Shown here: positions 34,955 through 39,928 of the stretch, one piece after another
Position numbering within the stretch: position 1 is the stretch's first letter
How the letters are laid out: every line of letters begins with the position of its first letter
Origin: Thermus antranikianii DSM 12462
GTDB lineage: Bacteria > Deinococcota > Deinococci > Deinococcales > Thermaceae
NCBI RefSeq assembly: GCF_000423905.1
Contig: NZ_AUIW01000004.1
Coordinates: 124,001 to 188,000 of the forward strand
DNA: 64,000 bases
Direction: 5' to 3'
The notes under the pieces: model-generated
The model's input: the letters and a program-made list of their open reading frames with translations, nothing else
What the model was told of the DNA's origin: nothing
Database searches by the model: none
Translations under genes and position numbers: made by a program

Positions 34955-36769
34955 CTACTCCACGGTGACGCTCTTGGCCAGGTTCCTGGGCTGGTCCACG
35001 TCCCGCCCCAGGAGGACGGCGATCTCGTAGGCCAGAAGCTGCAGGGGCACCACGCTCACGATGGGGGCGAGGAGGGGGTGGACCTCCGGCACGTAGAGCA
35101 CATCCTGGGCCAGTTTTGGGATCTCCGCATCCCCCTCGGTGGCGATGGCGATCACCCTGCCTCCCCGGGCCCGCACCTCCTGGATGTTGGAGAGGGTCTT
35201 CTCGTAAAGAGGCCCCCGGGTGGCCAGGACCACCACCGGCAGGTGCTCGTCGATCAGGGCGATGGGCCCGTGCTTCATCTCCCCGGCGGGGTAGGCCTCC
35301 GCGTGGATGTAGCTGATCTCCTTGAGCTTCAGGGCGCCCTCATAAGCCGTGGGGGCCTGCACGTGCCGGCCCAGGAAGAGGAAGTCCTGGGCCTGGTGGT
35401 ACTTCTCCGCCAGGTGGGCGATGAGGGGACGCTTTTCAAGAACTTCCTCCACCAACCGGGGAAGCTTGCGCATCTCCTTGAGGAGGCCTTGGGCCTTTTC
35501 CTTGGGGAGGATCCCCCTCCTTCGGCCAAAGTGGACGGCCAGCATGGCCATGGCGGCAAGCATGGCGATGTAGGCCTTGGTGGAGGCCACCCCGATCTCG
35601 GGGCCCGCATGGATGTAGAGCACGTCCTCCACCTCCCGGGTGATGCTGGAGCCCTTGGCGTTGATAACCCCCAGGGTCCTGGCCCCCTTGGCCTTGGCTT
35701 CCCGGATGCCCTCCAGGGTGTCTATGGTTTCCCCCGACTGGCTGATGGCGATGGCCAGGGTCTTTTCGTCCACCACGGGATCCCGGTAGCGGTACTCGCT
35801 GGCCACGTCCCACTCCGTGGGGATGCGGGCCAGGGCTTCCAGGAGGTACTTCCCGTACCAGCCGGCGTAGGCGGCGGTGCCGCAGGCGATCACGTGGATG
35901 CGGTCGATGGCCAGGGGGTCCAGGCCAAGGCCGAGCTCCACATCCCCTTCCTCCTCCCTGAGGCGCCCTCCCAGGGTGTTTTCCAGGACCCAGGGTTGCT
36001 CGTAGATTTCCTTGAGCATGTAGTGGGGAAAGCCTCCTTTCTCGGCGGCCTCGAGGGTCCAGTCGATCTCCACCACCTCCCGGGGCAGGGGATGGCCCTC
36101 GAGGTCCGTGACCGCCACCTCCTCCCGGGTGATGCGGGCCAGGTCCCCGTCGTGCAGGAAGATGACCCGGCGGGTGTAGGGAAGGAGGGCGGGTACGTCC
36201 GAGGCCAGAAAGTTCTCCCCCTCCCCCAGGCCGATCACCAGGGGGCTCACCGTGCGGGCGGCCACGATCTCCTGGTGGTCCTCGTGGGCCACCACCACCG
36301 CGTAGGCTCCCCGCACCTCCTTCAGGGCTTCCCTCAGGGCCTGGAAAAGGTCCCCCCGGTACTTCTCCTCTATGAGGTGCGCCAGGACCTCCGTGTCGGT
36401 TTCCGAGGCGAAGCGGTGCCCCCGCGCCCTTAGAGCCTCTTTAAGCTCCAGGTAGTTCTCGATGATCCCGTTGTGGATGACGGCGATCTTGCCGTCCTCT
36501 GTGGTGTGGGGATGGGCGTTGGGGTCGGTGGGGGCTCCGTGGGTGGCCCAGCGGGTATGGCCGATGCCCAAAGGCCCCTCCAAGCGCTCCTCCTTCAGGG
36601 CGCTTTCCAGGGCGGAAAGCTTCCCCGAGCGCTTCACCACCTTAAGCCCTTCCGGGGTCCTTACCGCCACCCCGGCGGAGTCGTATCCCCGGTACTCCAG
36701 CCTCCTAAGGCCATCTATGAGCACATCCGTGGCGTTGCGAAAACCGATATAGCCTACGATTCCACACAT
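34955..36769 (-). CDS. glmS: Glutamine--fructose-6-phosphate aminotransferase (isomerizing)
   Basis: 604 residues. The N-terminal Cys2 nucleophile is in MCGIVGYIGFRNA; LGIGHTRWATHGAPTDPNAHPH and VIHNGIIENYLELKEAL complete the glutaminase domain. The isomerase half has two SIS domains (AYAGWYGKYLLEALARIP, IAISQSGETIDTLEGIREA) and the C-terminal DQPRNLAKSVTVE with the conserved Lys-Ser-Val-Thr-Val-Glu end. It makes glucosamine-6-phosphate, the first step to UDP-GlcNAc for wall synthesis. AAAGGA lies 6 bases before ATG. The long leader carries a glmS ribozyme. Confidence 0.98.
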   Translation of the reverse strand: MCGIVGYIGFRNATDVLIDGLRRLEYRGYDSAGVAVRTPEGLKVVKRSGKLSALESALKEERLEGPLGIGHTRWATHGAPTDPNAHPHTTEDGKIAVIHNGIIENYLELKEALRARGHRFASETDTEVLAHLIEEKYRGDLFQALREALKEVRGAYAVVVAHEDHQEIVAARTVSPLVIGLGEGENFLASDVPALLPYTRRVIFLHDGDLARITREEVAVTDLEGHPLPREVVEIDWTLEAAEKGGFPHYMLKEIYEQPWVLENTLGGRLREEEGDVELGLGLDPLAIDRIHVIACGTAAYAGWYGKYLLEALARIPTEWDVASEYRYRDPVVDEKTLAIAISQSGETIDTLEGIREAKAKGARTLGVINAKGSSITREVEDVLYIHAGPEIGVASTKAYIAMLAAMAMLAVHFGRRRGILPKEKAQGLLKEMRKLPRLVEEVLEKRPLIAHLAEKYHQAQDFLFLGRHVQAPTAYEGALKLKEISYIHAEAYPAGEMKHGPIALIDEHLPVVVLATRGPLYEKTLSNIQEVRARGGRVIAIATEGDAEIPKLAQDVLYVPEVHPLLAPIVSVVPLQLLAYEIAVLLGRDVDQPRNLAKSVTVE

Positions 36770-36782
36770 ATAACATCCTTTG

Positions 36783-36806
36783 GGGTGGCCAAGCGCTTGG
36801 CCACCC
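36783..36806. promoter_or_regulatory. 24-bp perfect palindrome beside the glmS ribosome site
   Basis: GGGTGGCCAAGC is followed directly by its reverse complement GCTTGGCCACCC. In the glmS mRNA it would fold as a 10-bp stem with a GCGC loop, ending 1 base before the AAAGGA ribosome site. It could act as an RNA hairpin that limits ribosome entry or shields the 3' product of ribozyme cleavage, or as a DNA operator. Confidence 0.6.
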
Positions 36807-36995
36807 AGAACCTCCTATCCCTTCGCCCTGCCCCGCGGTTGTCCCTGAAGAGGGCTTTCCCTTGGGGCTTTTCTCAGGCGGGCGGGGCGGGCACACCCCG
36901 GGCGGCATCCGCGGATTCCTCGACCTTTCCCGGTTTCCCGGTTATCCCCTTCTCGGGGTCCGCCACCTCGTCAGGCCTTTTCGGCCCCCTGCGCT
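36807..36995 (-). ncRNA. glmS ribozyme (glucosamine-6-phosphate-activated self-cleaving RNA)
   Basis: Read on the minus strand: a GCGC start preceded by A (predicted cut between 36995 and 36994), a P1 hairpin (GGCC, GAAAA, GGCC), TGACGAGGTGGCGG, two small inserted hairpins (CCCC/GGGG, and CCGG-GAAA-CCGG), then TCGAG, TCCGCGGATG and CCGCCCGG. This order and these blocks match the known core of glmS ribozymes (UUGACGAGG, UCGA, CGGCGGAUG, UCCCGG). The helix usually written GGAGG/CCUCC is GGCGG/CCGCC here, a compensatory change. It lies in the leader of glmS, as expected. 3' hairpins (P3, P4) are only approximately placed. Confidence 0.85.
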
Positions 36996-37055
36996 TCCCG
37001 CCTTCCTCCTTCCTGGCTGATTTTTTTCCTCCCTCCCACCCCCCTCCTTCGGCGG

Positions 37056-37061
37056 AGTATA
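37056..37061 (-). promoter_or_regulatory. -10 box of glmS
   Basis: TATACT on the minus strand, giving a predicted start near 37049 and a leader of about 280 bases that contains the ribozyme and the palindrome. The first 54 bases before the cut site are purine-rich. No good -35 box was found. Confidence 0.55.
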
Positions 37062-37084
37062 GCAAAACCTTAAGGCCAAAAGGC

Positions 37085-37114
37085 TTGACAAGGTCTGGGT
37101 GAGGCTTTTATGAT
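37085..37114 (+). promoter_or_regulatory. Strong promoter of slpA
   Basis: TTGACA (37085-37090) and TATGAT (37109-37114) with an 18-base spacer. The predicted start is about 126 bases before the slpA ATG. The nearby minus-strand glmS box makes this a divergent promoter region controlling two cell-envelope genes. Confidence 0.8.
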
Positions 37115-37246: not shown

Positions 37247-39928
37247 ATGAAGAAAAGGCTAGTCATGCTACTGGCGGGGCTTTTGACCGTGCTCTCCATG
37301 GGCTTCGGTCTAGCCCAGTTCTCCGACGTGCCCGCCGGGCACTGGGCCAAGGAGGCGGTGGAGGCCCTGGCGGCCAAGGGGATCCTCGTGGGCTTCCCCG
37401 ATGGCACCTACCGGGGCAACGAGACCCTCACCCGCTACCAGGCGGCCCTCATCATCTACCGCCTCCTGCAGCAGATCGAGGAGGAGCTGAAGGCCAAGGG
37501 TGAGTCCCCCACCATGCAGGCCATGTCCTCCGAGGACATCGAGGCCCTGAAGAACGCCGTGCAGGAGCTGGCCGCGGAGCTTGCTGCCTTGGGCGTGCGG
37601 GTCTCGGCCCTCGAGGACAGCGCCGCCACCAAGGAGGACATCGCCCGCCTCGAGGCCATGATCCAGGAGCTCAAGGCCCAGCCTGCTCCTGAGCCCGGCA
37701 TGGACGCCGCTGCGCTTCAGGACCTGGCCGACCGGGTGGAGGCGGCCTCCATCGCCGCCGACACTGCCCTGGCCCAGGCCCAGCAGCTGGCCGAGCAGCT
37801 GGATGCCTTGGCCCAGGATGTGGAAGGGGTGAAGGGCGACCTGGCTTCCCTCCAGACCCAGGTGGAGGCCAACGCCCAGGCCATCCAGGCCCTCAATGAG
37901 CTCGCCGTCCTCCTCAACCAGGATGTCCTCTCCCTGCAGGACCGGGTGACCGCCCTGGAGAAGGGCTTGGCTGACTTGCAGGGGATTGACTTTGAGCAGT
38001 TCGCCTCCAAGGAGGATGTGGCTGCGGTGCAGGAGTTCGCCGCCGCCCTCCGCTCCGACTTGGTGGGGCTCTCCGAGAAGGTCTCCAAGCTCGAGGGCCA
38101 GGTGGCGGAGCTCTCCAAGGTGCAGTACACCATCTCGGGGAGCCTTACCGCCACCTACGGGATGAAGACCCTTGCGGGCACCAACTTTGATATCGACCGT
38201 CTCTTCTCCACGCCTTTCAGCACGGGGGTCTTTGGGGCAAGTCAGGTGGCTTCTTCCGTTATCCTTGAGGACGTCGCTTCCGCCAACCTTTCCAGCGGCT
38301 CCCTGAGCCTCACCTTAGGGGTGAAGAACACCGCTCCTGCCGCCACTGGCGTTGCGGTTTCCGAGGCGAGCGCGGTGGTCCAGGTGCCCGTGGCCTTTGG
38401 TACATCCTTTAGCGCTGCGCCCACAGTCCGGGTCAACGCCGCCACCGTGCGGGGTAGCGTGGACGGCCAGGCCTTCTCCGTGGCCTACAGCCGCGCGGCC
38501 AGCAGCTTCAAGTTCAACGATTACCTCTTCGTCAACGACAGCGATCCCGCGGGCCGCGAGACCCGCCAGGGGGTGGTGGCCACCTTCACGGGGAGCAAGC
38601 TGCCTCTGACGCCTACGGTGACGGTAGTAGCTGGGGTGAGCGACACCGCTGACAACGGTGGTGGTGGCGGGAACCTCCAGGGCAACTACTTCGGCTTCCG
38701 CTTCGCCACCAAGCCCATTGCTGGCCTGGACCTGGCCCTGAGCTACGCGGCCAACAACGTCAACCCCTCCCGCTCTGCCCTTGGCCTGGACGGCACCTTC
38801 AAGCTGGGCGATTTCTCTGTGAAGGGTCTCTTCGTTACCTCCAAGGTGACCAACATTGGTGGTTACTTCCGGGACTACTTTGACCCCGCTGTGGCTGACT
38901 GGGCCTACTACGTCCAAGCTGAGGCTAAGCTGGGGCCTTTGGGTCTCAAGGCAAACTACCGGGCCATTGACCCCCAATACGCCAACGGCGTGGCGGGGAT
39001 GTCTGGTAGCCACCTGGCCTACTATGGAGGCCTGGGAGGCTTCCAGTCACCGGCTCCCTACCCTGCTAATCAGGAAGGCTTGGGGGTTGAGCTTTCGGCC
39101 GACTTAGGGCCAATCAGCCTTGCTGCGAAGGGGGATAGCTCCACTACCTATCCCTACACGGGTGGCCCAAGCAGCACTAGCCTTGGGGTTTCCGCTAATA
39201 CCCGTCTCTTTGCTGGGTTTAGCCTTAAGGCCGCTTACGATACTTCCTACACTGGAACTGGTTACTTTAGCCTTACCACTCAAACGGCCTCTACGGTTAC
39301 CGCCACCCTGCAACACGATGGCGGAGCCAAGGACGCCCTGGTCAAGGACCTTAACCTGACCTTCCAGGGTACTTACAACACCATTACCAACGTCTTTGGC
39401 CTCACCGCCCACGCCACCTACAAGCTGGGGCTTGGTCCCATCAGCCTGGACCGCATCCTTGCCCGCTATGCGGATCCCGACCTGAACGTTGCCAACGACC
39501 AGACCCTGAAGGGCGGCCTCCAGGCCTCCTTGGACCTTGGTGGCTTCCTGCCCTTCAAGCCCAAGCTCACGGGCGAGGTGGCGGCCCGGCAGACCGGGGG
39601 CGCGGGCGGCACGGAGGAGCTCAAGTGGGGCGTGGGTCTCTCCCTGGGCGAGTTCCTCTTCCCGGGCTCCAGCGCCGAGGTGCGCTACGCCCAGTACCGG
39701 GCAAGCAATGTGACCAGCGTGGCCGTAGGCGTGAATGACCATGCCTTTGCTGCGGACAAGGACCGGATTTACTCCGACCCTGGTGCTAACAGCGGTACCC
39801 TTGCCGGCTTCAACGTCACCTGGCGCTACTACGACTTCCGCGTGGACTACGGCGAGTACCTGTTGGATCGGTCTGGCGGTCCGGACCACGCCCGTACCTT
39901 CCGCGTGACCTACACAGTGAACTTCTAG
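37247..39928 (+). CDS. slpA: S-layer/outer-envelope protein SlpA (SLH domain plus beta-barrel)
   Basis: 893 residues. Signal peptide ([17 protein letters not shown]), one SLH domain at about 25-75 ([38 protein letters not shown]), which binds the pyruvylated cell-wall polymer, a long coiled-coil (about 95-300) spanning the periplasm, then a beta-rich C-terminal domain (about 300-893) ending in the aromatic YTVNF typical of outer-membrane barrels. This is the main Thermus surface protein, tying the outer membrane to the wall. Codon use in 38600-39350 is somewhat less GC-rich than in the N-terminal part, as if the surface-exposed region evolves faster. Confidence 0.93.

Follow-up and report, generated by a model that had tools for sequence, protein, structure and literature searches.

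A putative glmS ribozyme of Thermaceae type in the glmS leader of Thermus antranikianii, with inserted core stems and a probable helix across the predicted cut site

The window analysed here, a 64,000-nucleotide stretch of contig NZ_AUIW01000004.1 of Thermus antranikianii DSM 12462 (positions 124,001 to 188,000), carries a glmS gene on its minus strand (34955–36769). The encoded glutamine-fructose-6-phosphate transaminase scores 846 bits with TIGR01135 (cut-off 418), confirming the gene named in an earlier note made from the sequence alone. The leader length of roughly 280 bases given there holds provided that an extended -10 element, TGCTATACT (37056–37064, minus strand), is taken as the promoter; this element was called by eye and is seen in most Thermus leaders, but the call is weak and was not picked up by a promoter scan of the window. 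A conserved RNA occupies positions 36824–37002 of the leader on the minus strand, and a strong hairpin without a T run, GGGTGGCCAAGCGCTTGGCCACCC (36783–36806, minus strand), lies between it and the glmS ribosome-binding site. Many Thermus leaders have a hairpin of other sequence at the corresponding place. An S-layer-homology/porin-like gene (37247–39928, plus strand) is divergent from glmS and shares its intergenic region, with a good sigma-70 promoter (TTGACA-18-TATGAT; 37085–37114, plus strand) located just upstream of the likely glmS promoter on the opposite strand.

The earlier note had proposed a glmS ribozyme at 36807–36995, composed of a series of blocks on the minus strand. All of these, namely A36995|GCGC, a GGCC/GGCC hairpin, TGACGAGG, GGCGG, TCGAG, CCGCGGATG and CCGCC, are located in that order. 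The proposed position of the cut site stands as a prediction and the extent requires revision, the ribozyme ending near 36824 and the conserved RNA starting at 37002, some 7 nt before the cut. Likewise, the blocks listed are right, and the helices P3, P3.1, P4 and P4.1, as well as a helix upstream of the cut here termed P0, are to be added.

The Rfam glmS model (RF00234; gathering cut-off 37 bits) returned nothing at the gathering threshold in the window, and a relaxed search of the leader up to E = 10 gave no glmS-like match either. The ribozyme region of the window is matched by no Rfam family, and none of 27 Thermus genomes is matched by RF00234. As the current model misses the ribozyme entirely, annotation that relies on Rfam leaves the site blank. 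The best RF00234 score in the Thermaceae, 28.8 bits, is an end-to-end alignment below the cut-off in a genome of the Meiothermus group (G005), directly before glmS, with an insertion relative to Rfam where the stems PA and PB described below are located. In neighbouring families of the order, scores range from 31.7 to 49.4 bits, five of them at or over 37. Since relatives from the same order pass the Rfam cut-off, the failure of RF00234 reflects model coverage and not a biological feature. The earlier note had itself counted such a failure against its proposal, and ancestry was therefore tested independently.

The alignment behind a covariance model (R1) comprised 12 sequences, drawn from the Meiothermus group (g4) and the sister family f4, and no Thermus sequence. 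This model matched positions 37007–36826 of the window (106.5 bits; E = 4e-29; runner-up: 16.8 bits, E = 0.0014) and a single site in the whole genome (E = 1.3e-27; runner-up: 0.026). Matches were obtained in 63/111 genomes of the phylum, including 48/49 Thermaceae, and the RNA is found upstream of glmS in every relative inspected, with one open reading frame in between in G049. Furthermore, a search for the core pattern TCGA-N(1-8)-TCCGCGGATGCC gave a single match in this genome and likewise one match in nearly all close relatives, and the reversed pattern, used as a control, gave 0 matches. When one genome per GTDB species was scanned, the pattern was found in Thermus, Meiothermus and further Thermaceae, together with two isolated matches elsewhere. 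On this distribution, the match in the leader is not a chance one. The two matches outside the Deinococcota, in Catelliglobosispora and Ramlibacter, were put down to chance, about one being expected by estimate.

The predicted cut lies between A(-1) at 36995 and G(+1) at 36994, a position obtained by aligning the RNA with its relatives and with the Rfam consensus AGCGCC. The 5′ strand of P2.2 follows (CGC-A-GG with a bulged A; 36988–36993); it is invariant in 59/59 sequences and pairs with CCGCG (36910–36914), as assigned from pair counts. The P1 hairpin (GGGCC/GGCCT; 36973–36987) has five pairs kept in 98–100% of sequences through CG/TA/AT/GC changes. The adjoining ACGAGG-T (36965–36971), which combines the 5′ strand of P2.1 (CGA, 36970–36968) with the active-site guanines, is identical to the active-site block A37–G42 of B. 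subtilis. Its partner, 36921–36923, belongs to TCGAG (36919–36923), which pair counts and block comparison identify as the 3′ strand of P2.1 and a side of the cofactor pocket. P2 is formed by GGCGG (36960–36964) and CCGCC (36901–36905) in 59/59 sequences with a third pair of either CG or TA, in agreement with the true pairing postulated earlier for these strands. The P3 hairpin (CGGGG..CCCCG; 36883–36900; loop UGUGCCCG) is likewise paired in 59/59, with a closing pair of CG versus AT. Its loop contains UGCCC (36889–36893), the 5′ strand of P3.1, which complements GGGCG (36824–36828), the 3′ strand; this pseudoknot covaries, UGCCC/GGGCG being the Thermus pairing and GAACCC/GGGTTC that of Meiothermus. 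Alignment and folds place P4 at 36830–36868 (GCCCC/GGGGC, 36868–36864 with 36834–36830), with an internal loop GGGAAA/ACAACC, and P4.1 at 36843–36854.

Pairs were counted in Python on anchored blocks in 59 sequences from eight genera, since the MAFFT alignment of Thermus with sister families shifts the 3′ strand of P0 by one column. Thirteen core pairs (five in P2.2, three in P2.1 and five in P2) are formed in 59/59, with compensatory changes of CG/TA in P2 and AT/CG in P2.1. The blocks AGCGC, ACGAGG, UCGA and GCGGAUG are all present in the window and nearly invariant among relatives. Directly before the U of the UCGA block, this species has G where many relatives have A. Recent mutational work reports A37–G42, C54–A56 and G67 as essential in B. 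subtilis (PMC11602151), and counterparts of all of these are found in the window RNA.

Two stems, PA (CCCC-GAGAA-GGGG; 36946–36958) and PB (CCGG-GAAA-CCGG; 36930–36941), stand in place of the short linker between P2 and P2.1. They correspond to the two small hairpins, one with a GAAA loop, that had been noticed before TCGAG (ACCCC..GGGG and CCGG-GAAA-CCGG), and are kept with compensatory changes in nearly all 59 sequences. Four pairs of PA are kept in 93–100% of sequences through CG/TA/GC changes, a fifth, outermost position being paired in Meiothermus only, and 0/5000 strand shuffles attained the observed pairing. PB is kept in 98–100% and shows two-sided changes (CG/GC and GC/AT; Thermus CCGG/CCGG versus Meiothermus GCAG/CTGC); its shuffle test (429/5000) has little power, there being only four distinct strand pairs. 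On the evidence of these paired changes, PA and PB are real helices. Their loops vary in length between 1 nt and about 130 nt. Two genomes of the Meiothermus group (L092 of G020 and L093 of G021) have insertions of ~130 nt in the PB loop, at a central place in the catalytic core.

The Thermus segment just before the cut site (GGCGGGA|A^GCGC) is as conserved as the core. Positions -3 to -8 (GGCGGG; 36997–37002) are complementary to CCCGCC (36877–36882), which directly follows P3 and constitutes an insertion in J3/4 relative to Rfam. Both sides of this helix, P0, change across genera, to AGCGGA/TCCGCT (g2), ACGGG/CCCGT (g3), GAG/CTC (Meiothermus, g4), TCGGG/CCCGA (g13), TTCGGG/CCCGAA (g10), GGGG/CCCC (g8) and TTGGG/CCCAA (g16). 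All 59 sequences form pairs -3 and -4, and 58/59 form -5, with pair -4 changing from GC to AT in 17 sequences. Pairs -6, -7 and -8 are formed in 80, 73 and 54% of the 59 sequences, and P0 contains mismatches in the Meiothermus group. In a permutation test with one representative per genus (14 genera), the duplex energy of true partners was -8.79 versus -6.89 for permuted partners (z = -4.26; p = 3e-4); kinship among sequences inflates such tests, and the slid controls share the same relatedness. Nothing comparable was found in 20 other downstream and nine other upstream windows, the best of which was far upstream (z = -2.75; p = 0.009). RNAalifold drew P0 unaided on the non-Thermus alignment alone, and the 3′ strand is visible as an insertion relative to Rfam, such as 'cccgaac' in L052. 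In the Rfam consensus, the bases preceding the cut are unpaired and rich in A and U, with no P0, and J3/4 is too short for P0 in two Firmicutes glmS ribozymes (L137 and L138). Canonical glmS sequences were sought on viral contigs as a control for P0, and none was found.

Thermodynamic folding bears on P0 in part. When 12 upstream nucleotides, including the 5′ strand of P0, are supplied, the minimum-energy fold contains P0, P1, PA, PB, P3 and P4, whereas a fold begun at the cut site contains neither P0 nor the native P3. Fold energies are no better than those of shuffles (z = -0.70 with the 5′ strand of P0; z = 0.95 from the cut site), and P2 is given in a shifted register because the programs ignore pseudoknots. 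With P0 added, predicted P3 pairing rises in Thermus from a mean of 0.46 to 0.68, and in the window from 0.23 to 0.64. The folding role of P0 is nevertheless only partly supported, since predicted P3 pairing drops in the Meiothermus group, where there is no folding gain, and P2 is not rescued in the predicted folds.

The pairing might instead belong to an alternative structure, such as an anti-ribozyme or a folding intermediate, or be a phylogenetic coincidence. P0 is short (3–7 bp), relatedness inflates permutation tests, and one control window far upstream attained p = 0.009 as well. Against this, the signal peaks at a single segment pair among 21 downstream and 10 upstream windows, pair types change jointly at -4 (GC/AT), -6 (CG/GC) and -7 (GC/AT/TA), and P0 fits alongside the other nested helices of the minimum-energy fold. 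We therefore regard it as unlikely that P0 is anything but a helix of the active RNA. As such a helix, P0 most likely keeps the substrate strand in position and steers an RNA of very high G+C content towards its native fold, and it may alternatively retain the 5′ product. Were P0 needed, cleavage would require both an upstream sequence and transcription beyond P3, and the 5′ product would remain attached, which would allow re-ligation or delayed release. It is conceivable, at somewhat less than an even chance, that the glmS ribozymes of the Deinococcota make up a separate structural class, in which a conserved P0, built with the insertion after P3, holds the strand 5′ of the cut.

The glmS ribozyme class has been known since 2004. 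McCown, Roth and Breaker reportedly described, in 2011, Deinococcus-Thermus variants whose catalytic core carries further stems and whose supporting structures are altered; these variants would come from the same phylum, and their extra core stems recall PA and PB. In the papers searched, a set apart from the McCown papers of 2011 and 2012, a glmS ribozyme of Thermus or Meiothermus was not found mentioned. With the class long known and variants from this phylum reportedly published, the RNA is taken as a lineage-specific form of a known class; PA and PB are very probably known too, and P0 is possibly a new detail.

Compared to the classic ribozyme (RF00234; B. subtilis, B. anthracis, T. tengcongensis), the Thermus RNA shares the location before glmS, the AGCGC cut site, the helices P1, P2, P2.1, P2.2, P3, P3.1, P4 and P4.1, the GACGAGG, UCGA and GCGGAUG blocks and the AAA/ACAA internal loop in P4. 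It differs by having two stems where the classic form has a short linker between P2 and P2.1, by P0, for which the classical type has neither a known conserved counterpart upstream of the cut nor the J3/4 insertion to form it, and by its score below the Rfam cut-off. P2.2 also differs, reading GCGCC-A-G in the classic form and GCGC-A-GG here. In the consensus core A6 is bulged in P2.2 (PMC7125110), while the pairs here are C4-G, [A5], G6-C and G7-C, placing the bulge one position earlier; the number of P2.2 pairs is maintained through changes on both strands. The Rfam-detectable relatives from neighbouring families (L052–L058; RF00234 31.7–49.4 bits) have the same core and the upstream GGG with a CCC insertion in J3/4 that make up P0, but several are without PA and PB and some have a hairpin elsewhere, between UCGA and UGCGG. 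Three of them (L052–L054, family f3) represent another structural type, with PA and PB absent and the hairpin between UCGA and UGCGG.

The GNRA tetraloop of L4, which docks to P1, is absent from the RNA in the window and from that of 13 other Thermus genomes; L4 is GNRA in the remaining tabulated sequences and is an accessory rather than a core feature. The 14 Thermus genomes without it are exactly those with G, not C or T, as the last base before ACGAGG (36972, at the foot of P1). This coincidence of changes suggests that the clade of these 14 Thermus lost the tertiary contact between L4 and P1 in a single event.

A degenerate glmS ribozyme, which would share the ancestry and fold without cutting, perhaps as a plain glucosamine-6-phosphate riboswitch or a structural leader, would be in keeping with the RNA being missed by Rfam, with the L4 contact lost in this clade and with a P2.2 register unlike the consensus. 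Loss of catalysis would, however, be expected to relax GCGC and GACGAGG first, and the cut-site and active-site nucleotides are nearly invariant in the 59 sequences, where the loops are free to vary; this explanation is thus very improbable. An unrelated structured leader resembling the motif by chance, to which the lack of an Rfam match in the window itself might point, is refuted by the R1 E-value of 4e-29 from an independent model and by relatives that align to the Rfam glmS model end to end at the same place before glmS, and can be set aside.

The homology, position, conservation and base pairing by covariation established here make it almost certain, as far as sequence can tell, that the leader ahead of glmS in this Thermus adopts the fold of a glmS ribozyme, which would serve as a feedback switch on GlmS. 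The identification made in the earlier note is thereby upheld by position, core pairs, conserved essential nucleotides, family-wide conservation, compensatory changes and graded relatives reaching above-threshold Rfam scores. With ligand, chemistry, cut and decay taken from the known class, accumulating glucosamine-6-phosphate, the product of GlmS, would bind a preformed pocket of P2.1 and P2.2 and act as the acid of the cleavage reaction, and the RNA would cut itself between A36995 and G36994. The downstream mRNA, now bearing a 5′-OH, would be destroyed, probably by RNase J, the gene for which is encoded in the same genome (TIGR00649; 528 bits), and GlmS synthesis would drop, closing a feedback loop on glmS. 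Decay of the mRNA after glmS cleavage has been described for RNase J1 (PMC7125110).

Thermus, a standard thermophile model, would on this strong case control cell-wall sugar synthesis by a metabolite-dependent ribozyme. Activity near 70 °C, which had been considered notable, is not remarkable in itself, since the thermophile Thermoanaerobacter tengcongensis has already provided a glmS ribozyme and, with it, a classic structure. This is one of the two classic glmS ribozyme crystal structures (PMC11602151). Together with P0, the two core insertions, with loops of up to ~130 nt, constitute natural experiments on the tolerance of the glmS core, P0 being one on the participation of upstream RNA, and structural studies can readily draw stable variants from the Thermaceae glmS family.

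Further variation can be observed among the relatives. At the P2.1 pair beside the active site, genus g3 (L029 and L043) has C-G in place of A-U (ACGCGG/GCGA) and family f2 (L055–L057) has A opposite G (ACGAGG/GCGA), whereas substitutions of A40 are very harmful in B. subtilis. In G049, of a sister genus, GAAGCGGTGAAGTGGTGAAG repeats are found in the P1 loop of the ribozyme and the region behind it (L090, 232–1090), and the open reading frame between ribozyme and glmS appears to encode a four-helix-bundle (23S rRNA intervening) protein.
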